From Candidatus Kaiserbacteria bacterium (GTDB taxonomy: Bacteria; Patescibacteriota; Minisyncoccia; Phycocordibacterales; UBA2100): a stretch of 43,233 nt of DNA. The stretch covers positions 1 to 43,233 of the forward strand of contig PLSR01000012.1 in the NCBI GenBank assembly GCA_003164215.1. The letters run 5' to 3'. Below, one piece after another: positions 23 through 42,295 of the stretch (positions are counted from its first letter, which is position 1; every line of letters begins with the position of its first letter). The position numbers and the translations under genes are program-made. Under the pieces are notes generated by a model. It did not search any database. It was given only the letters and a program-made list of their open reading frames with translations, and was not told the DNA's origin.

Positions 23-43
23 TACAAAGGCCGGAACTTGGTA
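23..43 (+). repeat. REP-like palindrome R1 (degenerate)
   Basis: TACAAAGGCCGGAACTTGGTA, ends at the ATG of the SRA/HNH gene. Confidence 0.6.
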
Positions 44-684
44 TGGATTTTCTAACCGACGATGCAGGTGGCCGCTCACTCATAACCTCCGCGAGCGAAC
101 TTCAAGTGCGCGAGGGGATGAATTTGCAGAAGGGGATGAATTTCAGAGACGGCGGCGAACAGCTGTCGGTATTCTTGGTGTTACCGCGCGACGGGGGATA
201 TACCGACACGTGGGATGAAGCACAGATGCACTACAGCTACGAGGGCCATGATTCGGTCGCTGAAGGTGCGGCAGGGCGCACGGACGATCAACTCTTGATG
301 TATGCGAGCGGGAAGCCGACAGAGAACGGGAAGTTCTACAAAGCGGCGAACGCATACAAGGACGGCATGCGCGCCGAGCCCTTGCAGGTGCAGATATACG
401 AAAAGCTCGACCCCGGCGTGTACTTCGATAAAGGTATCTTCAATCTCGTCGACGCGACCTACGGCAAAGCCGATGGCGATACGCGCAAGGTCGCGCGGTT
501 CTATCTCACCCCAGCCGATGCCGCGCTCGCACCAGATGGGCGCGTCGCATGGGCAGAACGAACGTTGCCGGCATCAGTCAAAGCGTCGATATGGCGCGAC
601 GGCCAAGGCCGCTGCGCGGTCTGTGGCGAACAATCAAGTCTGCATTTCGAGGGCGCCCATCTTCTTTGCACCGCCCACCGCTGA
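43..684 (+). CDS. SRA/McrA-like modified-base reader with degenerate HNH C-terminus
   Basis: 213-aa ORF; N-terminal GGEQLSVFLVLPRDGGYTDTWDEAQMHYSYEGHDS resembles SRA-like domains of ScoMcrA-type HNH proteins; C-terminal CAVCGEQSSLHFEGAHLLCTAHR resembles an HNH zinc finger with the central part missing. Confidence 0.7.
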   Translation: MDFLTDDAGGRSLITSASELQVREGMNLQKGMNFRDGGEQLSVFLVLPRDGGYTDTWDEAQMHYSYEGHDSVAEGAAGRTDDQLLMYASGKPTENGKFYKAANAYKDGMRAEPLQVQIYEKLDPGVYFDKGIFNLVDATYGKADGDTRKVARFYLTPADAALAPDGRVAWAERTLPASVKASIWRDGQGRCAVCGEQSSLHFEGAHLLCTAHR

Positions 685-685
685 C

Positions 686-706
686 TACAAAGCTCGGAGC
701 TCGGTG
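686..706 (+). repeat. REP-like palindrome R2
   Basis: TACAAAGCTCGGAGCTCGGTG, 1 nt after TGA stop. Confidence 0.75.
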
Positions 707-778
707 AGTGATGTTATTGCGCTCCTGCAGGGAAGGTATACGCTACCACGCAGACTTAGGCTTAGGCGGGAGGAGGCC

Positions 779-1144
779 ATGTTCTTAGTCGCATTTGTCG
801 CAACATACGTAACATTGGCGTCGTTCGAAGAGAATATTCCACTACCGTCACCACCGGAGGCGGATAAGGTCGCGGGGCTCATTTGCGAGAGCGTCTCCGA
901 TGCGGAAGATGCGGGCATCTATGACGTGGATCATAACGGCGACTTCACAGTCCCAGAAATGGAGTCGGAATTTTCAGGGCGGTGTTGGTATCGCGCTGTC
1001 GCGATCAAGCCACCGGGCGTTGTACTGACCGACGTTTTTCATCACGGTGACCACCAACTTCTCCTGTTCCGGATCTTTACACGGAGCGGCGATCGCTGGA
1101 TGTACCAGATCACCTTGCCCCCATCGCAATCATTGACGCGATAA
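779..1144 (+). CDS. Small hypothetical protein with one EF-hand-like loop (DVDHNGDFTVPE)
   Basis: In-frame part of ORF 302..1144; ATG at 779 preceded by GGGAGGAGG; upstream half of that ORF overlaps the 43..684 gene and is not credible. Confidence 0.65.
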   Translation: MFLVAFVATYVTLASFEENIPLPSPPEADKVAGLICESVSDAEDAGIYDVDHNGDFTVPEMESEFSGRCWYRAVAIKPPGVVLTDVFHHGDHQLLLFRIFTRSGDRWMYQITLPPSQSLTR

Positions 1145-1194
1145 AACACATCGCTCGGCGGGAATCTCCGCCGGGCGCTTTGAACGTTAATAAC

Positions 1195-1251
1195 TACAAA
1201 GCTCGGAGCTCGGCAACTTCTGTGGATAACTACAAAGCTCAGAGCTTTGTA
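1195..1251 (+). repeat. REP-like pair R3-R4 with DnaA-box spacer
   Basis: TACAAAGCTCGGAGCTCGGCA-ACTTCTGTGGATAAC-TACAAAGCTCAGAGCTTTGTA. Confidence 0.9.
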
Positions 1252-1291
1252 TTTTTAGGTGGGCCAACAGCAGATGATACACTGACCTCTC

Positions 1292-2947
1292 ATGACGCAA
1301 AACGAGGCTTTAGAGATACTAAAAACTGGAGTGAACGTATTCCTCACCGGTGAGCCGGGCTCCGGCAAGACGCACACGATCAATGACTACATTCGCTGGC
1401 TCAATGCGCGCGGTGTGGACGTGGCAGTGACCGCTTCGACCGGCATTGCAGCGACACATGTCGGCGGTATGACGATCCACTCGTGGAGCGGCATCGGGGT
1501 GAAGCGCAACGTTTCCGATTACGAGATCGAGCTCATTATGAGCAAGGAAAAGACTGCACGCAGGATCCTCGACGCGAAGGTCTTGGTGATCGACGAGATC
1601 TCGATGCTCGACGCGACGACGCTCGATAGCGTTGACCGCGTCCTGCGCACTTTGCGGCACAAGCCGATGATGCCGGAGGAACCGTTCGGCGGATTGCAGG
1701 TGATCTTCGTCGGCGACTTTTTCCAGCTACCGCCGGTCTCGCGGGACGGCGACATGCAATTCGCTTTCGCCTCGGACGCGTGGCGCGAAGCGCGGCCGGT
1801 CGCGTGTTATCTCAATGAACAACATCGACAAGACGATGGCGAATTTCTCGATCTCTTGAGCGCAATGCGGCAGGGCACGTTTGAACGGAAGCACCGCGAC
1901 ATCCTCGCCGGGCGCATCGGACTTTCGCAGGGCGCGATCGTTGCAACGAAGCTCTACACGCACAACGCCGACGTTGACCGCATGAATACCGATGCCTTGG
2001 AAAAGATCAAAGGCAACACGCATGTCTTTCAAATGACTTCGCGCGGTGCTTCGAACCTCGTCGAGGCATTGAAGAAGAACTGTCTCTCGCCGGAAACACT
2101 CGTCTTGAAAGAAGGCGCAGCGGTGATGTTCACGCGCAACAACTTCGACGAAGGATACGTCAACGGTACATTGGCAGATGTCATCGGATTTTCGCCGTTG
2201 GGTGCGCCGATTGTGAAGACGCGTTCGGGAATAACGCTCACCGTCGAACCGGCGGAGTGGGCGATACAGGATGGCAACAAGATCTTGGCGCGTATCAATC
2301 AAATACCATTGCGGCTGGCCTGGGCTATAACGGTGCATAAGAGCCAGGGAATGAGCCTCGATGCGGCGATCATCGATCTCGGCGCGGCATTCGAATTCGG
2401 ACAAGGGTACGTCGCGATCTCGCGCGTGCGCACACTTGCCGGGCTTTTCCTCGAAGGCTTCAACGAGCGTGCGCTTCAAATGCATCCGGATGTCGTCGCA
2501 CAGGATCGGTATTTTCGCGCATACTCCGACGCGGCACGCAAGAAATTCAAATCGTTGCCCGAGAGCGAGAAGGAACACATGCAAAAGAATTTCCTGAAGG
2601 CGATCGGCGCTCACGAACCCTCGATGCGGATACCTCAAGAACCGTCGGCAGGTGCCGCACATTCCGCCCTGCGGAACTCGCTTCGCTCAAACAGTCCTCG
2701 GTCAGAATCTGCGGCACCTGCCGATGGTTCTTCCAAACTGGACCAGGCACGTGAAAAATATCCCAACATGGGCAAACCATGGCCCAAGGAAGACGATGTG
2801 TTGCTTACAGAAATGTTCAAAGACAAAAAGTCGAACAAGGAAATGGGGAAACACTTCGGTCGCAAAGTTTCCGCGATCACCGCGCGTCTCGAACACCTCG
2901 GTCTTATCGAGAATACGTGGAAGGGATATCACAAGAAGCATGAATAG
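1292..2947 (+). CDS. PIF1/RecD-like superfamily 1 helicase
   Basis: Walker A GEPGSGKT, Walker B VIDEISML, VGDFFQLPPV, C-terminal AWAITVHKSQGMSLDAAIIDLG. Confidence 0.93.
   Translation: MTQNEALEILKTGVNVFLTGEPGSGKTHTINDYIRWLNARGVDVAVTASTGIAATHVGGMTIHSWSGIGVKRNVSDYEIELIMSKEKTARRILDAKVLVIDEISMLDATTLDSVDRVLRTLRHKPMMPEEPFGGLQVIFVGDFFQLPPVSRDGDMQFAFASDAWREARPVACYLNEQHRQDDGEFLDLLSAMRQGTFERKHRDILAGRIGLSQGAIVATKLYTHNADVDRMNTDALEKIKGNTHVFQMTSRGASNLVEALKKNCLSPETLVLKEGAAVMFTRNNFDEGYVNGTLADVIGFSPLGAPIVKTRSGITLTVEPAEWAIQDGNKILARINQIPLRLAWAITVHKSQGMSLDAAIIDLGAAFEFGQGYVAISRVRTLAGLFLEGFNERALQMHPDVVAQDRYFRAYSDAARKKFKSLPESEKEHMQKNFLKAIGAHEPSMRIPQEPSAGAAHSALRNSLRSNSPRSESAAPADGSSKLDQAREKYPNMGKPWPKEDDVLLTEMFKDKKSNKEMGKHFGRKVSAITARLEHLGLIENTWKGYHKKHE
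2637..2732. repeat. Palindromic element inside helicase CDS
   Basis: AAGAACCGTCGGCAGGTGCCGCA (2637..2659) and TGCGGCACCTGCCGATGGTTCTT (2710..2732), 22/23 complementary, 50-bp inner segment. Confidence 0.88.
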
Positions 2948-3042
2948 GGCGGTTGCGATCGTTCTTGCGCAAGACCCGTTTTCAATGTATTGTCAATAGA
3001 GCGCAAAGGATCGACCTTCGCGAATATAGGGGGATTGTCACA

Positions 3043-3315
3043 ATGCGGGTCGTGGTCACTGGAGAAGCAGGGCTCTTAAACGCCGCCGTCTCGTGGTGTG
3101 AGGGCGGTCCCGGACAATCGACAGTCATAGCCAACGAATTCGCGCGTTTTCGCCCCGACAAAGTCATTTTTCTCGACTTGTGGGGAGGAAGGATCGAACT
3201 CAATGGTCTCTCTCGCGTATCGTCCGAAGAGTTCGAAGAGCGGATTCGGCGACTCGGTTCCGAATTTGGTGGTCGCGCCTACTTTTACGACCCCCAAAAT
3301 CCGTCTCTTATGTGA
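3043..3315 (+). CDS. Hypothetical protein (90 aa)
   Basis: ATG at 3043 with upstream AGGGGGA; followed by hairpin plus T-rich tail at 3332. Confidence 0.55.
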   Translation: MRVVVTGEAGLLNAAVSWCEGGPGQSTVIANEFARFRPDKVIFLDLWGGRIELNGLSRVSSEEFEERIRRLGSEFGGRAYFYDPQNPSLM

Positions 3316-3384
3316 CTGTTCATCCTGATGTCCGCCGCACAGCTGAGCTATGCGGCGGGCTCGTCTTTTGTTACGATGGCTCGT

Positions 3385-6324
3385 ATGTCTGCGGAGAAGG
3401 AAGTAAAAAAGAGTGAAGTCGCGTTACGTGAAGAAGAGATCCTCAAATTCTGGAACGAGCACGATATTTTCAAAAAATCAGTCGATAAGGAGCCGACGAA
3501 AGGCGAGTATGTTTTCTATGATGGGCCGCCGTTCGCGACCGGTCTTCCGCACTACGGCCACATCGTCGCATCGGTGATCAAAGATGTCGTTCCTCGTTAC
3601 CAGACCATGCGCGGCTATCGCGTCCCACGCATTTGGGGTTGGGATTGCCACGGATTGCCTATAGAGAACATCGTCGAAAAGGAGCTCGGCTTCAAGCACA
3701 AGAAAGACATCAAGGCGTACGGCATCGCGAAGTTCAATGAGCGTTGCCGCGAACAGGTGCTGACCTACGCGCACGAGTGGGAAAAGATCATCCCGCGCAT
3801 CGGTCGCTGGGTAGACATGGAGCATTCGTATCGAACGATGGATAAGTCGTTCATGGAATCCGTTTGGTGGGTCTTCAAGCAACTTTTCGACAAAGGACTC
3901 GTGTACGAAGATTATCGTTCGATGCATATTTGTCCGCGTTGCGAGACAACGCTTAGTCAGCAGGAAGTTTCTGAGGGGTATAAGGATGTGAAAGATATCT
4001 CGGTGACGGTGAAGTTTAGGATGAAAGATCCAGCAAAACATGGGTTTCCAGAGAATACATATTTCTTAGCTTGGACGACGACACCGTGGACGCTGCCAGG
4101 GAATGTCGCATTAGCTGTTTTAGACCCGAAAGATCCACTAAAGAAAGTCGAGCGCTATGTTGCATGGAAGGAAGGAGATTCGATCGTGTTAGCTTCAGCT
4201 CGATATTTCAAAACACTTGGGAAACAAGATTCGGAGATCATTTATGTTTGTGGAGCGGAAGACTTAATTGGTCTCGAATACGAACCGCCTTTCGATTACT
4301 ACATCAAAGATCAAACACTCAAGAATCGCGAGAACGGTTGGAAAGTATACGCCGCTGATTTCGTAACGGCAGAGAGCGGCACCGGCATCGCGCACGAAGC
4401 GCCGGCTTTCGGCGCAGACGACTGGGAACTTTCAAAACAAGTGCATTTGCCGTTCGTGCAGCACGTTAATTACGACGGTACGATGAAGCCGGAAGTCACC
4501 GATTTTGCCGGAATGGAAGTGAAGCCGAACAGCGATGATGACAAAGTGCGGCTCGGCACCGACATCGCAGTCCTCAAATATCTCCAAGACCACGGTACTT
4601 TTTTCTCGAAAGAAAATATCACGCACTCATATCCGCACTGCTGGCGCTGCGACACGCCGCTTCTGAATTACGCGACGTCATCGTGGTTCGTTGCCGTTAC
4701 ACAGATCAAAGATAATCTGCTTGAGAATGCAAAAAATATCAACTGGTCGCCGGAGCACATCAAAGAAGGACGCTGGGGCAAATGGCTCGAGGGTGCGCGC
4801 GATTGGTCGATCAGCCGCCAACGATTCTGGGCGAGCGTCATTCCGATCTGGGTGTGCGAAAAATGCAAAGAGATGCGCGTATTCGGCTCTGCGACGGAGC
4901 TCGAAAAGGCAAGTGGCAAGAAAATAGATGATCTGCACAAGCACATTGTCGATGAGATCGCGGTGCCGTGTGATTGCGGTGGCACGATGAAAAGAATTCC
5001 GGATGTCTTGGATACCTGGTTCGATTCCGGTTCGATGCCGTATGGTGAACGGCACTATCCCTTTGAGAACAAGGAGAAATTCGACGCGGTGTTTCCTGCG
5101 CAATTCATTGCGGAAGGACTCGATCAAACGCGCGCGTGGTTCTACTACCTGCACGTCTTGGCTGGCGCGATATTCGAGAAGAACGCGTTCCAGAACGTGA
5201 TCGTCAACGGCATCATTCTCGCAGAAGACGGGAAGAAAATGGCGAAGAAGCTGAAGAATTATCCCGACCCGATGGAAGTAGTTGACCAATATGGCGCGGA
5301 TGCTCTGCGTTTTTACCTGCTTTCGTCGCCCGTGATGCAGGCGGAGAATCTCAGCTTCGCAGAGAAAGGTGTCGACGAGATCGTGAAGAAAAATATCGGA
5401 CGATTGAATAACGTGCTCGCGTTCTATGAACTGTACAAAGATGGCACGCCGCGCGATTGGCAAAGTACCAACGTGCTCGATCGCTGGATCATTTCGCGGC
5501 TCGATCAGCTCGTCGAGGAAGCGACGAAAGGTTTCGAGAGCTACCAACTCGATGTCGCCGCACGACCACTCACCGGATTCATCGACGATCTTTCGGTGTG
5601 GTATTTGCGCCGAAGCCGCGATCGATTCAAGACCGACGGCGACGACAAAACTGCCGCGCTCGCGACGCTACGGTACGTCTTACATACCGTCTCGCGTGTA
5701 ATGGCACCAACGATGCCTTTTTATGCCGAATATTTGTTCCAAGCCGTTCGCGAATCAGAAGACGAAGAGAGCGTGCACCTTGCGACGTGGCCGGAAGGGG
5801 ATGCTGCGACACGATTCGATGCGGCTCTGGTGAACGCGATGGCAGAATCGCGTCGCGTCGTCACGCTTGCCTTGGAACAGCGCGAGAAGGCGAATATCAA
5901 GGTTCGCCAGCCGCTTTCGGTGACACGCATTCCGCAAATCTCTTTTGCTGCGCTTCCCGATGTCGACGCATTGCTTGCGATCATCGCCGAAGAGATCAAC
6001 GTGAAGACGATCGAGATCGTCAAAGGTCTCGCTGCAGGTACGGTCGAGCTTGATACGTCGATCACACCTGAGCTTAAGGAAGAAGGATTCGTCCGCGATC
6101 TCGTGCGCGCAGTGCAGGGAGAGCGCAAGAATGCAGGCCTCAATCCACATGACACTATTTCGCTTATGATCTCTGCGCCGGATGATGTGCGGGCGATGAT
6201 CGAAAAGAACGAAACAGATATCGTTTCTGCGGTGAAAGCGACCTCGATCTCATTTGGCGATGTGACGAACGATATGCTGAACATCGGCGGATACGCGCTC
6301 GCGATCGCTGTCACCAAAGTGTAG
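3385..6324 (+). CDS. ileS: Isoleucyl-tRNA synthetase
   Basis: PPFATGLPHYGH (HIGH), TTPWTLPGN editing domain, DGKKMAKKLKNYPDP (KMSKS-position) motifs; alternative start 3376. Confidence 0.96.
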   Translation: MSAEKEVKKSEVALREEEILKFWNEHDIFKKSVDKEPTKGEYVFYDGPPFATGLPHYGHIVASVIKDVVPRYQTMRGYRVPRIWGWDCHGLPIENIVEKELGFKHKKDIKAYGIAKFNERCREQVLTYAHEWEKIIPRIGRWVDMEHSYRTMDKSFMESVWWVFKQLFDKGLVYEDYRSMHICPRCETTLSQQEVSEGYKDVKDISVTVKFRMKDPAKHGFPENTYFLAWTTTPWTLPGNVALAVLDPKDPLKKVERYVAWKEGDSIVLASARYFKTLGKQDSEIIYVCGAEDLIGLEYEPPFDYYIKDQTLKNRENGWKVYAADFVTAESGTGIAHEAPAFGADDWELSKQVHLPFVQHVNYDGTMKPEVTDFAGMEVKPNSDDDKVRLGTDIAVLKYLQDHGTFFSKENITHSYPHCWRCDTPLLNYATSSWFVAVTQIKDNLLENAKNINWSPEHIKEGRWGKWLEGARDWSISRQRFWASVIPIWVCEKCKEMRVFGSATELEKASGKKIDDLHKHIVDEIAVPCDCGGTMKRIPDVLDTWFDSGSMPYGERHYPFENKEKFDAVFPAQFIAEGLDQTRAWFYYLHVLAGAIFEKNAFQNVIVNGIILAEDGKKMAKKLKNYPDPMEVVDQYGADALRFYLLSSPVMQAENLSFAEKGVDEIVKKNIGRLNNVLAFYELYKDGTPRDWQSTNVLDRWIISRLDQLVEEATKGFESYQLDVAARPLTGFIDDLSVWYLRRSRDRFKTDGDDKTAALATLRYVLHTVSRVMAPTMPFYAEYLFQAVRESEDEESVHLATWPEGDAATRFDAALVNAMAESRRVVTLALEQREKANIKVRQPLSVTRIPQISFAALPDVDALLAIIAEEINVKTIEIVKGLAAGTVELDTSITPELKEEGFVRDLVRAVQGERKNAGLNPHDTISLMISAPDDVRAMIEKNETDIVSAVKATSISFGDVTNDMLNIGGYALAIAVTKV

Positions 6325-6326
6325 TC

Positions 6327-6902
6327 ATGTACCAAAAATACCAAACTGATGCGATCGTCATAGGCTCGCGCGAGAGCGGGGAAGCGGATAAGTCGCTGGC
6401 TCTCTATACGCGTGATTTCGGTCTCGTGCGTGCGCGAGCGACGTCGGTTCGCAGTGAAAAGTCGAAGATGCGCTATGCGCTGCAAACGTATGCGCGGGCG
6501 AATGTCGCCTTGGTGCGTGGCAAGAGTGGCTGGCGCACCGCGGGAGCATCGGCCTCGACGACGACTGTCGGTAAAGATGGCACCGGTATCAGTGCGTTCG
6601 CGCGCATCAGCGAGCTCGTCACGAAGCTCGTCGCCGGTGAAGACCATAACGAATATCTTTTTGATGCACTTGCGGAAGCTCACACGGCACTGATGCGGAG
6701 TCACGTGGAATCGGTCGCGACGATCGAGATCGTTGCGGTCGCGCGCATCCTCTTTGCGCTCGGCTATCTTTCAGCAGAAGCACTTGAGACTGCATTGTTC
6801 ACGCACACCGCGTATGCCGAGCCGCATCTGCGCGAAGCGGAAGTCATCCAAGAGGAGCTGCTACTATCTATCAATAGAGCGCTCTCGCAGACACATTTAT
6901 AA
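6327..6902 (+). CDS. recO: DNA repair protein RecO
   Basis: N-terminal YQTDAIVIGSRESGEADKSLALYTRDFGLVRARATSVRSEKSKMR typical of RecO OB-fold. Confidence 0.85.
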   Translation: MYQKYQTDAIVIGSRESGEADKSLALYTRDFGLVRARATSVRSEKSKMRYALQTYARANVALVRGKSGWRTAGASASTTTVGKDGTGISAFARISELVTKLVAGEDHNEYLFDALAEAHTALMRSHVESVATIEIVAVARILFALGYLSAEALETALFTHTAYAEPHLREAEVIQEELLLSINRALSQTHL

Positions 6903-6944
6903 TTCCCATTGTGTTCTTACACCTACAGCACTATCTTTACACTT

Positions 6945-7583
6945 ATGTCAGACACCGAAATAAAAGCCGAAGGTACGATGCCGACATCGCCGATCCCGAT
7001 CTATACATCAGTGCGCATGGGCACCATGCGCAGTCGTGACGGCGAAATGTTCACCATGTATGCCGGGCTTGAAATAGATCAGGTCGCGCAGTTGCGTGCG
7101 TACTCGCTCGATAAGAGCGACGAAGAAATTCAAAAGAACACATCCGACCGACAACGTTTTGGCGAAGGTTCATATGAGCAGTGGTATGCCAAAGGCCGCG
7201 TGCCGTTCGCGCTCGTACATGATGAGACCGGTACACTCGCCGCGATCACGTGGTTCGGACCGAAGCCCTTGGGTAGAAAATCGCTCAAACATCTTTCGGT
7301 TGAAGAACGCAGGCAAGACGAGCGGACGCTGGATTCCGGTGATTGGCATACGGTCGTCTATCGTGCGTACGGTCCCTATCGCGGGAAGGGTCTCATGAAA
7401 GCGTTCGTGAAGTTCACGATGGATGCGTATCGCACCGCATATCCGCGCTCTAAGATATGGGCCGGTATTTATGCGGAAAATCCCGCGAGCCTCGGACTCG
7501 TCGAAAAGCTCGGATTCAAAATGCGCGAAGACCTCTCCGATGCGACGTCGCACGAGACGGTGATGGTGTGGGAAGAAGTGTGA
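6945..7583 (+). CDS. GNAT family N-acetyltransferase
   Basis: YGPYRGKGLMKAFVKFTMDAY...GIYAENPASLGLVEKLGFKM acetyltransferase motifs. Confidence 0.88.
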   Translation: MSDTEIKAEGTMPTSPIPIYTSVRMGTMRSRDGEMFTMYAGLEIDQVAQLRAYSLDKSDEEIQKNTSDRQRFGEGSYEQWYAKGRVPFALVHDETGTLAAITWFGPKPLGRKSLKHLSVEERRQDERTLDSGDWHTVVYRAYGPYRGKGLMKAFVKFTMDAYRTAYPRSKIWAGIYAENPASLGLVEKLGFKMREDLSDATSHETVMVWEEV

Positions 7584-8501: not shown

Positions 8502-8609
8502 AGGTTCATCGGTGGGATATATCGCGGGCCAGTATACCACCAGTCATTCCGAAGTTGTGGATCGGTTTCCAGTTGTGCGTCGTTACGGTACAGTATACGC
8601 TACAGCGAT

Positions 8610-31156: not shown

Positions 31157-31177
31157 CACCAAGCTCAGAGCTTTGTA
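31157..31177 (+). repeat. REP-like palindrome R5
   Basis: CACCAAGCTCAGAGCTTTGTA. Confidence 0.8.
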
Positions 31178-32281: not shown

Positions 32282-32338
32282 TACAAAGCTCAGAGCTTGG
32301 TAACTTCTGTGGATAACTACAGAGCTCAGAGCTTTGTA
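32282..32338 (+). repeat. REP-like pair R6-R7 with identical DnaA-box spacer
   Basis: TACAAAGCTCAGAGCTTGGTA-ACTTCTGTGGATAAC-TACAGAGCTCAGAGCTTTGTA. Confidence 0.9.
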
Positions 32339-32382
32339 GGATGCTTTTGCTCAATATTTCAGCTGTGGTATTCTGGGCCGAT

Positions 32383-33099: not shown

Positions 33100-33102
33100 C
33101 CC

Positions 33103-33240
33103 TACAAAGCTCCGAGCTTTGTGGTTATCACGCCGAGAGAGGACCGAAATGAAAACACGTTTTCATTTCGTCCGAACGATGGCGGGAAAAATGATTTGCA
33201 ACCATTTATCCACAGAAGTTACCAAGCTCTGAGCTTTGTA
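33103..33240 (+). repeat. 138-bp composite repeat, left of RAYT (R8...R9)
   Basis: Palindrome at each end, inner CGAAATGAAAAC-ac-GTTTTCATTTCG hairpin, TTATCCACAGAAGT before R9. Confidence 0.88.
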
Positions 33241-33292
33241 TTTTTCCCCAGGTACCAGTTTCTGATGGCCATACCGCGCGTATAATCTGCGC

Positions 33293-34006
33293 ATGCAACT
33301 TCGGGGTCAGGTGCTCGCGGAAGGCGAGAATTATCATGTGTACAATCGCGGTGCTCACAAGCAGCCGATATTCACCTCGGACGAAGATCACGAGCGTTTT
33401 TTGCTCCTGCTCTATCTATACAACACGCACGATCACGTCGTGATGCGTGATGTCCTCTCCAAGTATTCCGCGAAGCGATTCAAGGGCCACGGATTTGTAG
33501 AAATTTTCAAGCACGAACACAGTGACAAATCACTGGTCGATATCCTTGCATATGCGCTGATGCCCAATCATTTTCATCTAGTCTTGCGTCCCAAAGAAGA
33601 CAATGGGATCCAACAATTTCTTCAAAAAGTCTGCGGTGCGTACTCGATGTATTTCAACGCAAAATACGATCACACGGGCACTTTATTTCAGGGGAGGTAT
33701 CATGCCAAGCTTGTCGATAGCGAACCATATTTTCGCTACCTGTTCGCATACGTTCATCTCAACCCGCTCGATCTTCTGCAATCCGACTGGAAGAAGGCGG
33801 GTATTCGATGCGCCAAGAAGGCGAGTTCGTTCCTGACTGATTATCGATTTTCGAGCTTCAAGGATCATATGGACAAACGTCCGGAAGGCGCGATCTTAGC
33901 AGATGAACTCCCCGACTTCTTCAGTTCGAAAGACGATATACGTGATCTCATAAAATGTGAATCAGAGCGAGTCCACCAGTCTTACGAAAAATTCGCCAAG
34001 CTCTGA
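33293..34006 (+). CDS. REP-associated tyrosine transposase (RAYT, Y1/HUH family)
   Basis: ALMPNHFHLVLRP (HUH-type HxH), FLQKVCGAYSMYFNAKYDHTGTLFQGRYHAKLVD with catalytic Tyr; flanked by palindromic repeats. Confidence 0.95.
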   Translation: MQLRGQVLAEGENYHVYNRGAHKQPIFTSDEDHERFLLLLYLYNTHDHVVMRDVLSKYSAKRFKGHGFVEIFKHEHSDKSLVDILAYALMPNHFHLVLRPKEDNGIQQFLQKVCGAYSMYFNAKYDHTGTLFQGRYHAKLVDSEPYFRYLFAYVHLNPLDLLQSDWKKAGIRCAKKASSFLTDYRFSSFKDHMDKRPEGAILADELPDFFSSKDDIRDLIKCESERVHQSYEKFAKL

Positions 34007-34131
34007 GCTTTGTAGTTGTCACACCGAGCGAGGAGCGAAATGAAAATTCGTTTTCATTTCGTCCGAGCAACGGCGGGAAAAAAGATTTGCAACCTTTTAT
34101 CCCCAGAAAATACAAAGCTCAGAGCTTGGTA
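33994..34131 (+). repeat. 138-bp composite repeat, right of RAYT (R10...R11)
   Basis: Same organisation as the left copy; R10 overlaps the RAYT stop codon. Confidence 0.88.
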
Positions 34132-34188
34132 ACTTATGGGGATAACTTCATGAAGGCGCGTGTGACGGTGGGATAATCCGGGTCACAT

Positions 34189-36876
34189 ATGAACAACGCT
34201 TTGGGGTCAAGCGTAGATGTAAATGCCTTGGGGTCAGGCATTTCGATTTCAAATGTGCGCAGAGCAGACGCGGCGACCTTCGTCGCCGCGTCGCTCATTG
34301 TGCTTCTCGCATTCTTCATCAATCCGGTTTTCGCGCATGCGCAAGATGGTCAGAGTCAGCTCACATGGGGCGACGCGACGTATGATTACTTCACGGGAGA
34401 TCTGCTCTCAAGTGATCAAATAAGTATGCAAGACGGCGGCACCTATGCGGTGCCGATCGGTGTATCGAAAGGTGCACTTGTGCAGATCCAAAACATACAA
34501 AATGGTGAGGTCAGTCAATATCCGAGTGCGGGGTATGGTCCGCTCTATTTCTTGCCGGATCCAGCACATTCTACAGAACGTGATTTGATAACAAACATTG
34601 GTGGCTATAGTGGAACCAGCACACTTGCATGGGAGAAGCCTGGCACGTACGAACTTGATGTCTATAAAATACAATTTTCAGTTGGGGACAATGTGCCATA
34701 TTGGGAAGGCATCGTGCATTTCTTTGTCGGGATGCCCGCCTATGCCCAGGTCGCAGATCCGCCCTACCAGACGATCCGCTTTACGATCGTTGATGAGAAC
34801 ATGGTGCCGAAAGAATCGAATGTACTTTTCATTCCCGGCACTGAATCGAGCCGACTCTACCAAAACACTACATCAGGAGAACAAAAGATTTGGGAGCCGG
34901 CGCTCCTCGGTCAACCCGGCGTGGAAGCGCTCGACCTTAATCCCGATGGTACGAGCATCACGCCGACATATACCAAAGCGAACGGCGCACTCGATACGAT
35001 CGCCCAAGGGCCATGGGGCATATCTATTCCGTTCGTGACTGAAGATATTTATAAGACGTTCCTCCAGCAACTCGCGCAGTTGAAAGCGAGCAGCACGATC
35101 GCCGATTATCTCGTCTTCCCATACGACTGGCGCATGAGCCCGGAAGACGTCGTCAATAACGGTACTGCTTATGATGACGGCATACATCATCTCGATACTG
35201 AGCTCGTCGCACTTGCCGCGACATCACGAACCGGCAAGGTCACTATCGTCGCACACTCCAACGGCGGGCTCGTTGCAAAGGCGTTGATGAACAAGCTTGT
35301 ACAAGAAGGCAAGGGGAATTTGGTTGATAAGATAATCCTTGTTGCTGTGCCACAAGATGGTACGCCGGCAGCAATCTCGGTACTTCTCCATGGTGATCAG
35401 ACCGGCATCCCACCATACGTTGTGTCGCAAGCGACCGCCCGCGGTCTGGGGCAATACATGCCCGATGCCTATGACCTTCTTCCGTCGGCGGCCTATTTCT
35501 CGCGAGTATCAACGCCGGTCGTTGATCTCACGAATGCACCAGGGCTTCGCTCGACGGCAGGATTCGCAAGCAAGACCATTATGAACATTGGCAACCTGCA
35601 AAAGTTTCTGACCGGTGCCGGCGGTCGCACGCAGCCTGATCCATCTAATGTCGAAATACCGGAAGTGCTCTCAAAAACGATCCTTGCGGGGGCAACCTCG
35701 CTCCACAACGACCTTGACTCGTGGCAGCCGCCTGCGGGCGTACAAGTCATCCAAATCGCTGGTTGGGGCGTTGACACGGCCTCCGGCGTCGTCTATACGG
35801 AATCCAATGAGCCGGACTGCACCTATGCCATCACCTGCACGACAGCGACCACCACGCGCCATATGGTGAGCCTTACCGAAGATGGAGATGGCACAGTGGT
35901 AACACCGAGTGCCGTGGCAACTACTAGCTGGCAATCATATTATGTAGATCTCAGATCTTACAACGATGCATTTAAGACTAATTTTAGTCACGCCGATATA
36001 ACGGAGATACCAAACGTTCAAAATCTCCTACAATTACTACTCGCCTCAAGTTCTCCAGAGGTATTACCAACTTACGTTACATCGATCGAACCCGTTGCAT
36101 CCTCAAATGAGGAAAGTCTTCGGCTCCGAGTTCTTTCGCCGGTGACATTAGATGCTTTCGACAGCTCAGGAAACCACACTGGCATTGTGCCGGGGCAAAA
36201 TCCGAATGCGGAAGTTCTTGTAGTGGACGAGCAGATCCCAGGAAGCTATTACCAGCGATACGGCGAAGGACAATATATCGGGCTTCCAGCGAGTGGTACC
36301 TATAACGTAAAACTGCATGGCACTGGGACGGGGACATTTACTTTTGAAATTACACCAGTCTCGGAAGATACCGCAGGTACCCCAATAAGTTTTAGCGGGA
36401 TTCCGGTAACGGCCTCGAGCACAGTTGCTATAAATGTGAATGGTGCGAATCCTGCATCGACCTCACTCGTCGTCGATGAGAATGGAGATGGTAAGACCGA
36501 CATAACGATCGCGTCGTCGACACAAGCTGCCGATCCGCTTGCATATACAAAGATTATGTTCACGAGCATCCTTGGAATGGATATCGGGCCGATCGTAAAG
36601 ATCCCACTCGAAGCGAAGATCGTGAATGCTGGCTATCTTATCGCACGAAGTACTCTGTGGGACAACGACGATGGGGACGCAAAAGATACGAATACCAAAG
36701 ACATTTTAAAAGTTCGCGTTTTAAGAAAACTGAATCTGATCGAAACATATGTTGAGAATGAAGTTACCAAACCAAAACCGAAGCTCCTGAAGGCAGAACA
36801 AATATCTCTCGCACAGGGAACTCAAATTCTTGATATGATTGAAGAGTTGAAGACATTGGTAAATGCAAAGTTATGA
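34189..36876 (+). CDS. Exported LCAT/PDAT-like alpha/beta hydrolase with C-terminal beta domains and a Ca-binding-like loop
   Basis: PYDWRMSPEDV, VTIVAHSNGGLVAKALM (GxSxG-type nucleophile elbow), DENGDGKTDI. Confidence 0.83.
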   Translation: MNNALGSSVDVNALGSGISISNVRRADAATFVAASLIVLLAFFINPVFAHAQDGQSQLTWGDATYDYFTGDLLSSDQISMQDGGTYAVPIGVSKGALVQIQNIQNGEVSQYPSAGYGPLYFLPDPAHSTERDLITNIGGYSGTSTLAWEKPGTYELDVYKIQFSVGDNVPYWEGIVHFFVGMPAYAQVADPPYQTIRFTIVDENMVPKESNVLFIPGTESSRLYQNTTSGEQKIWEPALLGQPGVEALDLNPDGTSITPTYTKANGALDTIAQGPWGISIPFVTEDIYKTFLQQLAQLKASSTIADYLVFPYDWRMSPEDVVNNGTAYDDGIHHLDTELVALAATSRTGKVTIVAHSNGGLVAKALMNKLVQEGKGNLVDKIILVAVPQDGTPAAISVLLHGDQTGIPPYVVSQATARGLGQYMPDAYDLLPSAAYFSRVSTPVVDLTNAPGLRSTAGFASKTIMNIGNLQKFLTGAGGRTQPDPSNVEIPEVLSKTILAGATSLHNDLDSWQPPAGVQVIQIAGWGVDTASGVVYTESNEPDCTYAITCTTATTTRHMVSLTEDGDGTVVTPSAVATTSWQSYYVDLRSYNDAFKTNFSHADITEIPNVQNLLQLLLASSSPEVLPTYVTSIEPVASSNEESLRLRVLSPVTLDAFDSSGNHTGIVPGQNPNAEVLVVDEQIPGSYYQRYGEGQYIGLPASGTYNVKLHGTGTGTFTFEITPVSEDTAGTPISFSGIPVTASSTVAINVNGANPASTSLVVDENGDGKTDITIASSTQAADPLAYTKIMFTSILGMDIGPIVKIPLEAKIVNAGYLIARSTLWDNDDGDAKDTNTKDILKVRVLRKLNLIETYVENEVTKPKPKLLKAEQISLAQGTQILDMIEELKTLVNAKL

Positions 36877-37316
36877 ATCACAAAGTAGTCGCAGTAATTC
36901 TATTTGCACTATCTCTCCTCGCAATTTTATTTGGCTATTTTCTTCTTAGTCCATGGTTGATAGGATTGTGTCCTATAGATTCTTACTGCCTAGATGATTC
37001 GTTAAATTTTGGGATAGGTTACCCTCTCTATCTCAGTATTCGTATACTTCCTCTCATTTTTTTTACCCTGATATTCGTGCGTAAAGAAGTATTTAGTACA
37101 TGGTGGAAAATTATCACCCCGCTTTCAATTCTGCTTCTGTTTATCATCATCTCTACACCATATGAATATCATGGATGGATACAGCTTTGGCCCGATCGAA
37201 CGGCCATGACCCACTTAATGGTTTACGTGTTCGTTATCGTAAGTATCATCGTCATTCTCTGGAAATACTGGCGACTGTCACGTATCCCAAAAACAAAACC
37301 GGCACAGCGCGGATAG
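36873..37316 (+). CDS. Hypothetical membrane protein
   Basis: 4-bp overlap with upstream CDS; several TM helices. Confidence 0.7.
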   Translation: MNHKVVAVILFALSLLAILFGYFLLSPWLIGLCPIDSYCLDDSLNFGIGYPLYLSIRILPLIFFTLIFVRKEVFSTWWKIITPLSILLLFIIISTPYEYHGWIQLWPDRTAMTHLMVYVFVIVSIIVILWKYWRLSRIPKTKPAQRG

Positions 37317-37357
37317 CCCGCTTTTCCAATACGCATTACGGTATACAATAGGGGAAC

Positions 37358-37516
37358 ATGCAACAGTCGCCGACGGGATCGTTTCTTAAATTTACGTTCG
37401 GGTTCGTCACGTTTCTCGTGTTGAGCTTCGGCCTCACGCTCGCCGTCAGTAGTTACACCAAGACCCAAGGTTCCCAGCAAGCCGCCGCCGCGGCGATCGC
37501 GCTCATGTTGAAATAG
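37358..37516 (+). CDS. 52-aa small membrane protein (MQQSPTGSFLKFTFGFVTFLVLSFGLTLAVSSYTKTQGSQQAAAAAIALMLK)
   Basis: TACAAT-N8-ATG start, one TM, terminator directly downstream. Confidence 0.55.
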   Translation: MQQSPTGSFLKFTFGFVTFLVLSFGLTLAVSSYTKTQGSQQAAAAAIALMLK

Positions 37517-37527
37517 TATAAAAGTTC

Positions 37528-37559
37528 GAGCGCCGGAATCCTTCGGGATCCCGGCGCTC
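37528..37559. terminator. Hairpin with TTCG tetraloop between convergent genes
   Basis: GAGCGCCGGAATCC-ttcg-GGATCCCGGCGCTC. Confidence 0.7.
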
Positions 37560-37567
37560 TGTGAGTG

Positions 37568-37909
37568 TCAGATCGTGACACCATAGGCGGTCGCGATCTC
37601 TCGCATGTCCGAGACGATGGCAGGATCGATGAATTCTGCGGGGACGTTCGGAAGGATGAATTCCTTCTCATCGCCCGCGAGCACGTTAACGACCGCAGCC
37701 TCGACGTGCCCACCGAATCGTCGCCGGACATCTTTGCAAAAGACAATTTCCGGCAGCGCCAGTTCATATGCCTCTTGCCGCTCTTGCTCGATGGTCTTCG
37801 GGTCGGCCCTCGACCTTTCCCATAGGTCGAAAATCGTCTTCGGGTTTAGACCCCTCCACGCCTCACACCTGAAGGCGCGGATGACATCGTCCACGGCCCT
37901 GTGTCCCAT
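37568..37909 (-). CDS. Hypothetical protein (113 aa)
   Basis: Start preceded by GGAGAG on minus strand; no recognised domain. Confidence 0.6.
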   Translation of the reverse strand: MGHRAVDDVIRAFRCEAWRGLNPKTIFDLWERSRADPKTIEQERQEAYELALPEIVFCKDVRRRFGGHVEAAVVNVLAGDEKEFILPNVPAEFIDPAIVSDMREIATAYGVTI

Positions 37910-37977
37910 TGGTTCTCTCCAGATCGCGGCATTCGTTAGCCGCGAAATACTTTATCATATTGATTGATAATGTCAAA

Positions 37978-38005
37978 TTGACGTATCCTCACAAAACTGT
38001 ACTAT
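37978..38005 (+). promoter_or_regulatory. Promoter of rplJ-rplL unit
   Basis: TTGACG-N16-TACTAT. Confidence 0.6.
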
Positions 38006-38011
38006 GCCCCG

Positions 38012-38142
38012 CATAAGGCCAGAGAAAGCGAGCTTCCCGGTGGGAGTCAGACTTGCTTGAGGTCGAACGATCCAGGATTTGATCCTGCGTCTCTCGAAGC
38101 CTTTGCAGATTAAAAGTGTTTCCGTTTGTTCATTGTGCATAT
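38012..38142 (+). promoter_or_regulatory. Candidate structured L10 leader
   Basis: AAGCGAG[CTTCCCggtGGGAG]..CTTGCTT and CAGGATttgATCCTG hairpins immediately 5' of rplJ, the usual position of L10 autoregulatory leaders. Confidence 0.5.
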
Positions 38143-38646
38143 ATGGCAAAAACGAGAGAGCAGAAGAAGGAGATAGTGGAAAAGATCGAAGGTGCCATCA
38201 AAGGTGCCGCTTCGTCGGTCTTCGTCCACTTCAAAGGAGTGACGGTCGCGCAGGAATCGAAACTGCGCCGCGCATTCCGCGCCGACGGCCTTGGGTATAC
38301 CGTCGCGAAGAAGACCTTGATGCGCCGCGCACTCGACAACCTCGGCCACGAACATCAGAACGTGCCGATGGATGGGGAAGTCGCTGTCGCATACAACATG
38401 GGGAGCAATGATCCGACGCTTCCAGCCAACCGCATTCACAGCTTCGGTAAAGAATGGGGTCCGGAGAAGCTCGTCATCTTGGGCGGCATTTTCGACGGCA
38501 AGTTCGTCGATGCGGCCGCTATGCAGGAGATCGCGACGATCCCGTCGCTCATGGTCTTGCGGGGCAAGTTGGTGAACCTCATCAACTCGCCGCTGAGCCG
38601 GCTCGCGATGGTGTTCGACCAGCACGCGCAAAAGATGAGTTCCTAA
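38143..38646 (+). CDS. rplJ: 50S ribosomal protein L10
   Basis: MAKTREQKKEIVEKIEGAIKGAASSVFVHFKGVTVAQESKLRRAFR. Confidence 0.95.
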   Translation: MAKTREQKKEIVEKIEGAIKGAASSVFVHFKGVTVAQESKLRRAFRADGLGYTVAKKTLMRRALDNLGHEHQNVPMDGEVAVAYNMGSNDPTLPANRIHSFGKEWGPEKLVILGGIFDGKFVDAAAMQEIATIPSLMVLRGKLVNLINSPLSRLAMVFDQHAQKMSS

Positions 38647-38676
38647 TTATAAAAGAGCTTTTGGCTTTCCTATAAG

Positions 38677-38702
38677 CTAGAAGCTAATCACTAGAAGCTA
38701 AT
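38677..38702 (+). repeat. Direct repeat CTAGAAGCTAAT x2
   Basis: CTAGAAGCTAAT-ca-CTAGAAGCTAAT between rplJ and rplL. Confidence 0.8.
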
Positions 38703-38709
38703 TAATCTT

Positions 38710-39129
38710 ATGTCAGACGAAACAATAACGGTAGAAGGAGCAGAGGCGGACGTCGTTGTCCCTTCGCACTTCAAGGCCCTCGTCGAGGGAATGGAGAAGC
38801 TCACGATCTTGGAGGCGAATGAACTCGTGAAGTTGCTTGAGAAGAAGTGGGGAGTCTCCGCAGCCGCGGTCGCGGTCGCCGGACCGGCTGCTGCAGGTGC
38901 GGCAGATGCTGATGAGAAGGCGGAATTCGATGTTGAACTCACCGCGATGGGCGAACAGAAGATCGCCGTCATCAAAGTCGTGAAGGAGATCTTGGCGCTC
39001 GGCCTTGCCGAAGCAAAGACGCTCGTCGAATCAGCTCCGGCTATGCTCAAACAAGCGGTCAAGAAGGAGGACGCCGAAATTTGGAAGAAGAAAATAGAAG
39101 AGGCTGGTGGTAAAGTGACGTTGAAATAA
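38710..39129 (+). CDS. rplL: 50S ribosomal protein L7/L12
   Basis: Hinge and C-terminal [56 protein letters not shown]. Confidence 0.96.
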
Positions 39130-39238
39130 TCCAACGAGCGATGATGAGAAAAGTGCCGTAACAGGTCCAATGCTCATTAACGTGCCGGACGCAGTAGCGT
39201 CCGGCCTGGAGGAAAATCGCGGTCAAATAAGCCAAAAA

Positions 39239-39259
39239 TACAAAGCTCAGAGCTTTGTA
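39239..39259 (+). repeat. REP-like palindrome R12
   Basis: TACAAAGCTCAGAGCTTTGTA followed by gaTATCCACAG. Confidence 0.88.
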
Positions 39260-39337
39260 GATATCCACAGAGATCGCCCCGATGCACCCGCGTCGGGGCG
39301 GTTTCTATTGACGTCCGACACGTGATATTATCCGCTT

Positions 39338-39973
39338 ATGAAAAGCAAGGATTTCCTGAGTGACTTTATTGGCGACCAGCCGCGTGCGCGTCTCCTCCGG
39401 ATCTTTATTTTTAATGATACTGAATCCCTTACGCTTTCGTTGGCGGCCAAACGTGCCGGCATCACGCCGCAAGCAGCGATTCATGCATTGCGTGAGCTCG
39501 AGCATTTAGGGGTCATCACGAAAGGTAAGCAATTGCCGATGCCGGTCTTGCAGAACGGAAAGCTTGTGAAGAAAATTTCCGCGCACAGAGCTGAACCATC
39601 GTGGACCGTGAATACCGACTTTGAGCATTTTCGTGCCGTATCAAATTTTGTGCATGAGGCTTCGCCGGCACGGTACGAGACGATCACTACTGCCTTGCGA
39701 CGCACCGGCAGACTCGGGGTCGTCGTGCTCTCGGGGAATTTTATGGGTGATCCGACGCGGCCGGCCGATCTTTTGCTTGCCGCCGACGGCCTCAGCAAAC
39801 AACGTCTCGAAACAGCGCTCAAAGGTCTTGAACAAACATTCGGGCGTGAGATCCGCTATGCCGCATTCACGACCCCGGAATTCCGCTATCGCCTCACGGT
39901 GCAGGACCGTCTCATCCGCGACACGTTGGATTTTCCGCACCTTGTTCTCTTAGACAGAACGCGCTTGCTCTGA
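39338..39973 (+). CDS. HTH transcriptional regulator-like protein
   Basis: N-terminal winged helix LSLAAKRAGITPQAAIHALRELEHLGVITKGKQ. Confidence 0.7.
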   Translation: MKSKDFLSDFIGDQPRARLLRIFIFNDTESLTLSLAAKRAGITPQAAIHALRELEHLGVITKGKQLPMPVLQNGKLVKKISAHRAEPSWTVNTDFEHFRAVSNFVHEASPARYETITTALRRTGRLGVVVLSGNFMGDPTRPADLLLAADGLSKQRLETALKGLEQTFGREIRYAAFTTPEFRYRLTVQDRLIRDTLDFPHLVLLDRTRLL

Positions 39974-40078
39974 ACCTATCCACAGCAAGGTAACGAGCAT
40001 GGAGAAGATGCTCGTCGAGGTGTTATCATTTTGAGTATATAAGAGGTCGCGAACCTTTAATCACTCATTATTTATTTT

Positions 40079-40768
40079 ATGATAGTTTCTCAATCAGCGG
40101 GCGCGGTACAGGGATCTCTGAGCGATCTCTGGTTCGTTGTCCTCCAATACGTGCCGATGATCATCGCCGCGATCATTGTGCTCATCGTCGGATGGATCAT
40201 CGGCGTCATTCTCTATCGCGTCATTGTCGAGCTCGTGAAGGTCTTACGCATTGACGACGTGATGAAGTCGGCGGGTCTTGATGAAGCAGCCAAAGATCTC
40301 GGCTTCAAGCTCAACACCGGACGCTTTCTCGGGACGCTCGTTATGTGGTTCGTCATCCTGGGATTCTTGGGGGCATCGCTTCAGATACTCGGACTCACAA
40401 CAGTGACCATCGTTCTCGAGCAGGTCGTCCTTCTCTACTTGCCGCACGTGATCATTGCGGTCCTCATTCTGATCCTCGCGGCGGTCGTCGCGGAGATCGT
40501 GAAGAAACTTGTTGCGGGCTCGGCGCGCGCAGCAGGAAGCCGCCACGGCAACTTCGCGGGCACGATCGCCAAGTGGGCGATATGGATCTTTGCGATCATG
40601 ACGGTCATGACCCAGCTTGGCATCGGCGCTGATTTCGTCAACACGCTCTTCACTGGATTCATTATCGCACTTTCAATCGCATTCGGTCTGGCCTTTGGTC
40701 TCGGCGGCAAAGACGCCGCCGCACGTACGATCGAACATATTCGTAGTGAAATGTCGCACGACCAGTAA
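40079..40768 (+). CDS. Conserved TM-helix protein (mechanosensitive channel-related)
   Basis: Repeated TM helices, C-terminal LFTGFIIALSIAFGLAFGLGGKDAAA. Confidence 0.82.
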   Translation: MIVSQSAGAVQGSLSDLWFVVLQYVPMIIAAIIVLIVGWIIGVILYRVIVELVKVLRIDDVMKSAGLDEAAKDLGFKLNTGRFLGTLVMWFVILGFLGASLQILGLTTVTIVLEQVVLLYLPHVIIAVLILILAAVVAEIVKKLVAGSARAAGSRHGNFAGTIAKWAIWIFAIMTVMTQLGIGADFVNTLFTGFIIALSIAFGLAFGLGGKDAAARTIEHIRSEMSHDQ

Positions 40769-40772
40769 TGTA

Positions 40773-40818
40773 CAAATACAGACCTTGGGTACTCCCAAAG
40801 TCTGTATTTGTTCCCCCC
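40773..40818. terminator. Long-stem terminator
   Basis: CAAATACAGACCTTGGG-tact-CCCAAAGTCTGTATTTG, 17-bp stem with one mismatch. Confidence 0.8.
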
Positions 40819-40845
40819 TTTATTCCTATTACGTATTTTGGGGAC

Positions 40846-40877
40846 GGGGCCCGACCGAAGGTCGGGCCCCGCTTTTT
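40846..40877 (+). terminator. Perfect intrinsic terminator
   Basis: GGGGCCCGACC-gaa-GGTCGGGCCCC then GCTTTTT. Confidence 0.9.
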
Positions 40878-40903
40878 GCCCTCATTTGCTATATAATGAA
40901 ACC

Positions 40904-41605
40904 ATGCAAGCAGTCATCCTCGCCGCTGGTCGCGGTACGCGAATGGGCGTCCTTACCGACAACATCCCGAAGCCCTTGCTTGAGGTTGCAGGCAAGACGC
41001 TCCTCGAACACAAGTTCGATGCCCTGCCGGAAGAGGTCGATGAGGTTGTCCTCGTCGTCGGATACCTCGGCGGAAAGATCCAAGAACGCTTCGGCGGCAG
41101 TTATAACGGCAAGCGCATCCTCTATGTCGAACAAGAAGTGCTCGACGGCACCATGGGCGCACTTTCTCGAGTCAAAGGCATTCTCACTGATCGCTTTCTC
41201 GTCATGATGGGGGATGATCTCTACGCAAGCGATGACATTGTGCGAGGTATCGCGATGCCCGATTGGGTCATGCTTGTGGAAGAGACTGCTCAGATGAGTG
41301 CCGGTGGTCGCATCATAGTGGATGACACCGGTATCATCGTAAACATCGAAGAGGGAGATCATAAGGGGCAGGCGGGACTCGCCAATACGGGCTTGTTCGT
41401 TCTCGATACGCGCATATTCCAATATCCAATGGTGCCCAAAACTGCGGGATCAGACGAATTCGGTTTACCACAAACTGCCCTCGCCGCATCAAAAACAGCG
41501 GACATTCCTTTCTTGGCGATCAAGTCGACCTTTTGGATCCAGATCACCGACCCGTATGATTTGGTCCGCGCCGATGCCGCGATCAACGCGCGGGATAGGA
41601 AATAA
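40904..41605 (+). CDS. Sugar-phosphate nucleotidyltransferase
   Basis: MQAVILAAGRGTRMGVLTDNIPKPLLEVAGKTLLEH. Confidence 0.92.
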   Translation: MQAVILAAGRGTRMGVLTDNIPKPLLEVAGKTLLEHKFDALPEEVDEVVLVVGYLGGKIQERFGGSYNGKRILYVEQEVLDGTMGALSRVKGILTDRFLVMMGDDLYASDDIVRGIAMPDWVMLVEETAQMSAGGRIIVDDTGIIVNIEEGDHKGQAGLANTGLFVLDTRIFQYPMVPKTAGSDEFGLPQTALAASKTADIPFLAIKSTFWIQITDPYDLVRADAAINARDRK

Positions 41606-41643
41606 CTTGTCTCCCATTTTCGGCTCCGATTTTTGGCCAAAAA

Positions 41644-41664
41644 TACAAAGCTCAGAGCTTGGTG
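41644..41664 (+). repeat. REP-like palindrome R13
   Basis: TACAAAGCTCAGAGCTTGGTG. Confidence 0.85.
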
Positions 41665-41719
41665 ATTTGACCGACAGTTCATTTTTTTGCACAATCGCAT
41701 CCAGAGGCGGGAGGCAACG

Positions 41720-42172
41720 ATGCGACACATCAGCCCGTATGGAAGCCGGATTCGGCGCGGAGCATGCGCTTTACTTGTTATGGCGGACGGTAAAATCCTT
41801 CTGCACCTTCGCTCGAAGGATGCATGGATCTACGGAGGCTCCTGGGCGTTCTTTGGAGGCGGAGTTGAACGCAGGGAATCCTCATACCAAGGACTTAGCC
41901 GTGAATTAGGGGAGGAGATCGGGAGCCGGGTCTTTCCGGTCCACCGACTGATCGACTCCTCGCGGCATGTGAAGAAGTGCGGACGCGGATTTGTCCGTGT
42001 AAACGACGACACATACTATATCGAAGTTGAGTCATGGCGACGATTCCATCTGAAAGAGGGACAGGATATGCGTCTGTTCACCCTCGATGAAGCCTTGCAA
42101 TTGAAACTGCCACCGCACGAACGGAAAATTATAACCATGCTCCTTCATCGGCGGCAAAGACTGGCCACTTGA
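41720..42172 (+). CDS. NUDIX hydrolase
   Basis: NUDIX box GGGVERRESSYQGLSRELGEEIG; SD GGGAGG. Confidence 0.9.
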   Translation: MRHISPYGSRIRRGACALLVMADGKILLHLRSKDAWIYGGSWAFFGGGVERRESSYQGLSRELGEEIGSRVFPVHRLIDSSRHVKKCGRGFVRVNDDTYYIEVESWRRFHLKEGQDMRLFTLDEALQLKLPPHERKIITMLLHRRQRLAT

Positions 42173-42181
42173 AAGCCCTCA

Positions 42182-42217
42182 AACGTCCCGCGGCAAGACT
42201 GCGGGGCGTTCGATTTT
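42182..42217 (+). terminator. Terminator after NUDIX gene
   Basis: AACGTCCCGC-n9-GCGGGGCGTT then cgatttta. Confidence 0.7.
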
Positions 42218-42238
42218 AAGCCCTATTCTGGGCAAAAC

Positions 42239-42295
42239 TACAAAGCTCAGAGCTTTGTTGGTATCCCCAGAAGTTACCAAGATCCGACCTTTGTA
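42239..42295 (+). repeat. REP-like pair R14-R15
   Basis: TACAAAGCTCAGAGCTTTGTT...GTATCCCCAGAAGT-TACCAAGATCCGACCTTTGTA (spacer in reverse orientation). Confidence 0.8.

Follow-up and report, generated by a model that had tools for sequence, protein, structure and literature searches.

The palindromes dispersed over the window, the 43,233-nucleotide stretch of DNA analysed here, and the transposase gene in their midst very probably constitute a REP/RAYT-type system of Kaiserbacteria-like Patescibacteria, in which we infer that the transposase mobilises the palindromes. The family follows the consensus CTACMAAGCTC-N-GAGCTTKGTAG, and its members are 17–23 bp long, near-perfect, and present at ~90 copies per Mb. 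By analogy with the E. coli enzyme, the RAYT would recognise the palindrome as a single-stranded hairpin (CTACAAAGCTCAGAGCTTTGTAG is the single-stranded form of the window class), would cut at the foot of this hairpin, and would insert doublets of palindromes at intergenic positions as non-autonomous, REPIN-like units.

The RAYT gene, its palindromes, and their co-occurrence

The gene at 33293..34006 (+ strand) encodes a Y1 (HUH) REP-associated tyrosine transposase (RAYT) of 237 aa with an NHFH motif at residues 92–95. It matches Pfam Y1_Tnp (PF01797, E=8e-11) and, under the 80-bit equivalog cut-off, the NCBIfam model NF047646 REP_Tyr_transpos (E=5e-11, 42.7 bits). H93 and H95 are invariant in alignments and Y117, which is probably the catalytic tyrosine, is nearly so. 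A PDB search by sequence gave no match, and the AlphaFold model (pLDDT 92) has as its best PDB structural match 4er8, the E. coli RAYT with a REP hairpin (E=2e-6), with IS608 and ISDra2 TnpA ranking behind. Domain, family, and fold thus agree with the first-pass annotation, which had placed a RAYT beside the palindromes. Its suggestion of a likely CPR genome is borne out by the named relatives of the protein, which come from Kaiserbacteria, Adlerbacteria, Nomurabacteria, and other Patescibacteria. The window is contig 21 of a Patescibacteria genome (G000) of 1,005,050 bases in 28 contigs; this genome has three further Y1 genes with different flanks, plus one truncated, and the RAYT of the window is single-copy for its class.

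Genome-abundant REPs lie on both sides of the gene, as in a REPtron. Upstream, an outer copy (33103..33123) and an inner copy (33220..33240) form a 117-bp doublet; downstream, an inner copy (33994..34014) that contains the RAYT stop codon and an outer copy (34111..34131) form another. The doublets correspond to two 134-bp repeats of 86% identity (33107..33240, a doublet plus internal hairpin, and 33998..34131). An extra strong hairpin, CGAAATGAAAA...TTTTCATTTCG, occurs within these RAYT-side doublets (33135–33200 and 34025–34095) and is absent from the other listed doublets. In a second genome of the genus, G047, the orthologous RAYT is likewise flanked by REPs and the gene order TPR-RAYT-LCAT is the same, but 36-bp doublets take the place of the 117-bp ones. 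The RAYT therefore looks vertically inherited, while the palindromes turn over. The third gene of this order, an LCAT-like lipase/acyltransferase gene (34189–36876), lies directly 3′ of the RAYT and keeps its position in G047.

A scan of the window with CAAAGCTCNGAGCTTTG at ≤3 mismatches detects 14 sites, where 0.13 are expected and 100 shuffles give at most 2. The 17-mers start at 688, 1197, 1233, 31159, 32284, 32320, 33105, 33222, 33996, 34113, 39241, 41646, 42241, and 42277, two bases inside the 21-mers of the first-pass annotation. Fourteen of the 15 palindromes listed there are recovered; the copy near 23 (23..43) is degenerate, its core at 25–41, CAAAGGCCGGAACTTGG, having 3 mismatches to a relaxed consensus. 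Besides the RAYT-flanking copies, the consensus scan finds palindromes at 686..706 (3 bp past a stop codon), 31157..31177 (single), 39239..39259 (after an rplL-like gene), and 41644..41664. It also finds 36-bp-type doublets at 1195..1251 (with TGTGGATAA in the spacer), at 32282..32338 (93% identical to 1195–1251 and folding into one long hairpin, z −5.5), and at 42239..42295, whose second member is degenerate. Doublet spacings are fixed, at 36 and 117 bp within the window and additionally at 20–23 and 64 bp elsewhere in the genome, which adds to the earlier list. The interval from 1.25 to 31.1 kb is indeed free of copies. The family is not confined to three accessory zones, since ~89 copies are spread genome-wide and the genes around the 39–42 kb zone are ordinary ones, rplJ/rplL-like genes among them. 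G047 has no palindrome at the place orthologous to 39239, but the surrounding region is rearranged and a clean empty site was not found. Among known RNA families, the window search matched LSU rRNA only. Another short sequence, TATCCACA, occurs in doublet spacers and RAYT flanks (1214–1230, 32301–32317, and 33207–33219 in the window) and in the flanks of 11 of 93 RAYTs, against 0.1 loci expected.

Over the whole genome, CAAAGCTCNGAGCTTTG at ≤3 mismatches matches ~100 places per strand (9–10 for a reversed control) and CMAAGCTCNGAGCTTKG at ≤2 mismatches matches 89 (2 for the reversed pattern), so that the family is not limited to the window. In a comparison of 52 genomes of the genus, copy number is 89 in G000 and 44 in G047, while the other 50 have 0–5 and controls 0–3. 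Identity to the window RAYT is 100% in G000, 80% in G047, and 53% in the next best genome. REP and RAYT thus co-vary, high copy number being found only with an orthologous RAYT, and relatives without a RAYT match are far from equally rich (0, 1, 1, 0, 0, and 5 copies in six genomes). The apparent dependence of copy number on the RAYT is a correlation that rests on one phylogenetic event, because the two high-copy species are related.

Other palindrome classes are genome-specific too, at lower copy number (about 3–24). CRAGGACSGTCCTYG has 10–16 copies in G013, G042, G008, G046, and G043, GCAAGGTY has 8–13 in G028, G025, and G048, and GAGGTTWAACCTC reaches 24 in G043; CCAAGGACGGTCCTTGG is the palindrome of a relative. 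At least 14 nt are common to both flanks in 147 of 193 CPR RAYT loci but in only 1 of 386 mismatched pairings; of these 147 shared segments, 86 are palindromic. RAYTs elsewhere in the phylum are flanked by palindromes of their own that differ from the one in the window.

Palindromes inside RAYT coding sequences

Within 71 of 192 non-redundant CPR RAYT genes lies an in-frame copy of the gene's own flanking palindrome, mostly at codons 46–69; the first lead was that several CRAGGACSGTCCTYG- and GCAAGGTY-class matches fell within RAYT genes. In the genus, 39 of 93 RAYTs share 13–30 nt with their own flanks at CDS position 121–206, whereas 558 comparisons with the flanks of other RAYTs give a longest share of 13, once. 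Among 110 further CPR-type loci, which include named Nomurabacteria, Sungbacteria, Nealsonbacteria, and Wolfebacteria and of which a few overlap the genus set, 28 share at least 17 nt with their own flanks (null maximum 14). A whole-CDS scan at ≥15 nt reveals a second internal position at about nt 444–594 in nine genes (L165, L182, L183, L187, L207, L216, L224, L228, and L247). With identical proteins removed, the first site is present in 62 genes and the second in 9, which leaves 121 with neither.

The window RAYT and its G047 ortholog contain no internal palindrome. Comparison of CDS with flanks likewise finds none in E. coli rayT or in about 30 outgroup RAYTs, which were reached via a record titled Gammaproteobacteria. 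Three outgroup matches were discounted, L299 and L286 as ORF-call artefacts by eye and L269 as the same CPR-type locus as L176. CPR-type RAYTs also occur on contigs titled Spirochaetia, Omnitrophota, Gastranaerophilales, and Gammaproteobacteria (L176, L178, L185, and L196), through transfer or mis-binning.

Translation of the internal palindromes uses three codon phases and yields unrelated peptides, which indicates that the constraint acts on the DNA. A tree from which the loop columns were left out requires 33 changes of the first site, whereas shuffled labels require 53 (minimum 44). The copy sits in a hypervariable loop modelled with low confidence (residues 61–70). This location and the readability of all three phases are what would be expected if the copy were a chance or neutral REP insertion into a tolerant loop, with no function or continuing exchange, and REPs within other genes are known from several species (PMC3733652). 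Such an origin is nevertheless unlikely. In the sister clade of the window RAYT, all 18 members carry the copy, in many palindrome sequences that always match their own flanks, and loops with a copy are not clearly longer than those without (30 vs 28 residues), so that an insertion lengthening the loop finds no backing. The internal and flanking copies moreover share a non-synonymous change (Ile/Arg): L053 has CATAGG in the internal copy and both flanks, and L054 has CAGAGG in the internal copy and one flank. The shared stretch extends to non-palindromic coding bases, and the upstream copy of L057 bears coding bases on both sides. The simplest reading of these shared changes is copying between gene and flanks, which may have run in either direction.

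Two open frames of <100 aa occur among the listed genus RAYT N-termini, and both end at the internal REP. One, in the genome of the window (C14:60530-60830, L302:727-1029), consists of a REP, a 55-codon RAYT start, an identical internal REP, 8 nt, and an inverted REP, with the 3′ part of the gene missing. In the other (G013:C1, L305:605-1038), 72 nt of the gene's own 5′ part are duplicated in inverted orientation after the break, with additional REPs. Replication slippage between palindromes, with the RAYT uninvolved, is a possible cause of both breaks.

Under the REP/RAYT reading, the internal REP of the relatives that possess it would join the flanking REPs in one DNA exchange, keeping gene and flanks in step, and would become the break point of the gene when the reaction deletes. 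A tentative extension of this reading, to which we give less than an even chance, is that the CPR RAYT gene is itself a REP-bearing element. Its internal recognition palindrome would exchange with the flanking ones, so that shifts in specificity move gene, flanks, and dispersed repeats together, and self-cutting, a form of self-limitation, would leave REP-bounded fragments. Loss of the internal copy is not supported as the cause of high copy number, as a large clade without internal copies has just 0–24 palindromes per genome.

Placement and doublet structure

Site statistics derive from 75 sites in 394 kb of sampled stretches, which were picked partly for holding sites, and from gene calls made by a simple codon-usage scheme. 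On this basis, 61 sites are fully intergenic, 6 lie at gene edges, and 8 lie inside predicted genes, although 83% of the DNA is coding and 17% non-coding. The intergenic bias that the first-pass annotation had proposed to check is therefore present, and the family combines extragenic location with high copy number as classical REPs do. The AGCTTGG/CCAAGCT arm variation reported there is genuine; at that pair, the 75 sites carry the combinations A-T (17), C-G (17), A.G (18), and C.T (18).

Doublets account for 59 of the 75 sites, with member spacings of 20–23, 36–38, 64–65, or 117 bp. The most frequent is 36 bp (11 times), followed by 20–23 (9), 64 (6), and 117 bp (2), the last confined to both sides of the RAYT within the stretches studied. 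The 36-bp doublets have TTATCCACAGAAGTTA, in one orientation or the other, as their common spacer, a T-rich spacer is shared by most 64-bp doublets, and near-identical long spacers are seen in doublets at unrelated places. Such defined, recurring spacing is that of REPINs and BIMEs, and the pattern suggests that the REPIN-like doublets spread as units. Seven of 15 occurrences of the DnaA-box-like sequence TTATCCACA (consensus) in sampled DNA of this genome adjoin REPs.

Folded as single strands, examples of all doublet types form long hairpins (z −4.4 to −11). In the 20- and 23-bp doublets, pairing across members is better than within them, with compensating changes from AGCTC/GAGCT to AGGTC/GACCT, as expected for a terminator-like hairpin. 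The 36-bp doublets retain each separate palindrome. A preference of members for their own partner was rejected for doublets overall (488 vs 478 shuffled, maximum 495, not significant) and is seen in the 20–23 bp types only.

Many copies lie 3–15 bp downstream of stop codons, and 22 of the 61 non-genic sites with two neighbours fall between convergent genes, an enrichment over the 23% of intergenic bp in that arrangement. These placements, together with the perfect or near-perfect long hairpins and compensating changes of the 20–23 bp doublets, would suit palindromes with a regulatory or structural role for the host (as terminators, protein-binding operators, or uptake signals) that multiplied for a cellular function, with the RAYT adjacent by accident. 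Such a host function is, however, very improbable as the origin of the family: it would be expected genus-wide, yet 50 of 52 genomes are at background level; the palindrome class tracks the RAYT from genome to genome; and the near-identical long-spacer doublets at unrelated places are what copied units would produce. Within the REP/RAYT reading, doublets whose members almost adjoin, and which frequently lie between convergent genes, may double as transcription terminators. A first impression of an integron-like cassette array, given by palindromes between single ORFs, was dropped, the sites being genome-wide, palindromic, and tied to the RAYT.

Relation to known repeat systems and significance

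The system shares with the GTAG REP/RAYT systems of gammaproteobacteria (PMC2817692, PMC8266576; PDB 4er8) the HUH/Y1 fold, palindromes to either side of the gene and in many extragenic copies, their arrangement in doublets (BIME/REPIN), and RAYT–REP co-divergence. It differs in its near-perfect palindrome with a 1-nt centre, where GTAG REPs have an imperfect stem and a longer loop, in a protein of about 230–240 rather than 165 aa that scores below the NF047646 cut-off, in its Patescibacteria host, and in the REP carried inside the gene by relatives of the window RAYT. At the 75 sites, neither strand has a GTRG in the 6 nt 5′ of the stem; the usual 5′ sequence there is TAC[AC]. The earlier proposal of a possibly new REP class accordingly gains ground, as the palindrome is without the head that defines the GTAG class. 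The companion statement that REP/RAYT systems are described mainly in Proteobacteria holds for classical REPs; GTAG/CGTC-tagged REPs, on the other hand, are known from 8 phyla (PMC3733652), so that REPs outside Proteobacteria are not in themselves new.

TIRYT elements are RAYT-like genes with GTAG-unrelated TIRs, some of them self-complementary and repeated (PMC3733652). Common to them and the present system are a Y1 gene, non-GTAG repeats that are sometimes self-complementary, and the possibility of moderately abundant dimeric families; the section consulted on them makes no mention of an internal copy. The TIRYT motif GGGGWSAS occurs near the window RAYT and in 11 of 34 outgroup loci, but is unenriched in CPR RAYT flanks (17 of 204 vs 17.7 shuffled), and TIRYT membership was rejected. 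With the GT(A/G)G head and the NCBI equivalog cut-off also wanting, the system is a variant of the RAYT/REP kind outside the GTAG class. REPINs (PMC3116915) are likewise two palindromes with a defined spacer that apparently spread as a unit and can form a long hairpin. Here, unlike in REPINs, several spacers (20–23, 36, 64, and 117 bp) coexist for one palindrome, and the 36-bp spacer contains the DnaA-box-like TTATCCACA.

That the repeats are ordinary IS200/IS605-type MITEs, conventional transposon ends with the Y1 gene as their transposase, is slightly less probable still than a host function: the Y1_Tnp domain, the 134-bp repeats flanking the gene, and the structural matches to IS608 and ISDra2 TnpA would fit, but a RAYT rather than TnpA tops those matches, TnpB was not found among the searched ORFs neighbouring the RAYT, the gene stays single-copy for its class and in the same place in G047 while palindromes multiply, and the 134-bp repeats are REP doublets that are swapped for 36-bp doublets in G047.

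In Rickettsia palindromic elements, a palindrome is inserted in frame into protein genes. The CPR case is unlike these in that the gene is the palindrome's own transposase and its internal copy agrees with the copies flanking it. A literature search that covered few subscription journals gave no report of REP/RAYT in CPR, Patescibacteria, or Parcubacteria, which speaks weakly for novelty; papers on REPtrons are few in number.

In reduced genomes such as those of CPR bacteria, one would not expect some 90 dispersed non-coding repeats per Mb. The genus, with 52 genomes, many RAYTs, and many palindrome classes, is a natural experiment on the joint shift in specificity of a transposase and the palindrome it targets, which is an open question for REPs. 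A frame-locked internal copy that changes with the flanks opens this question to direct tests, as every switch of palindrome class leaves its record in the protein sequence.
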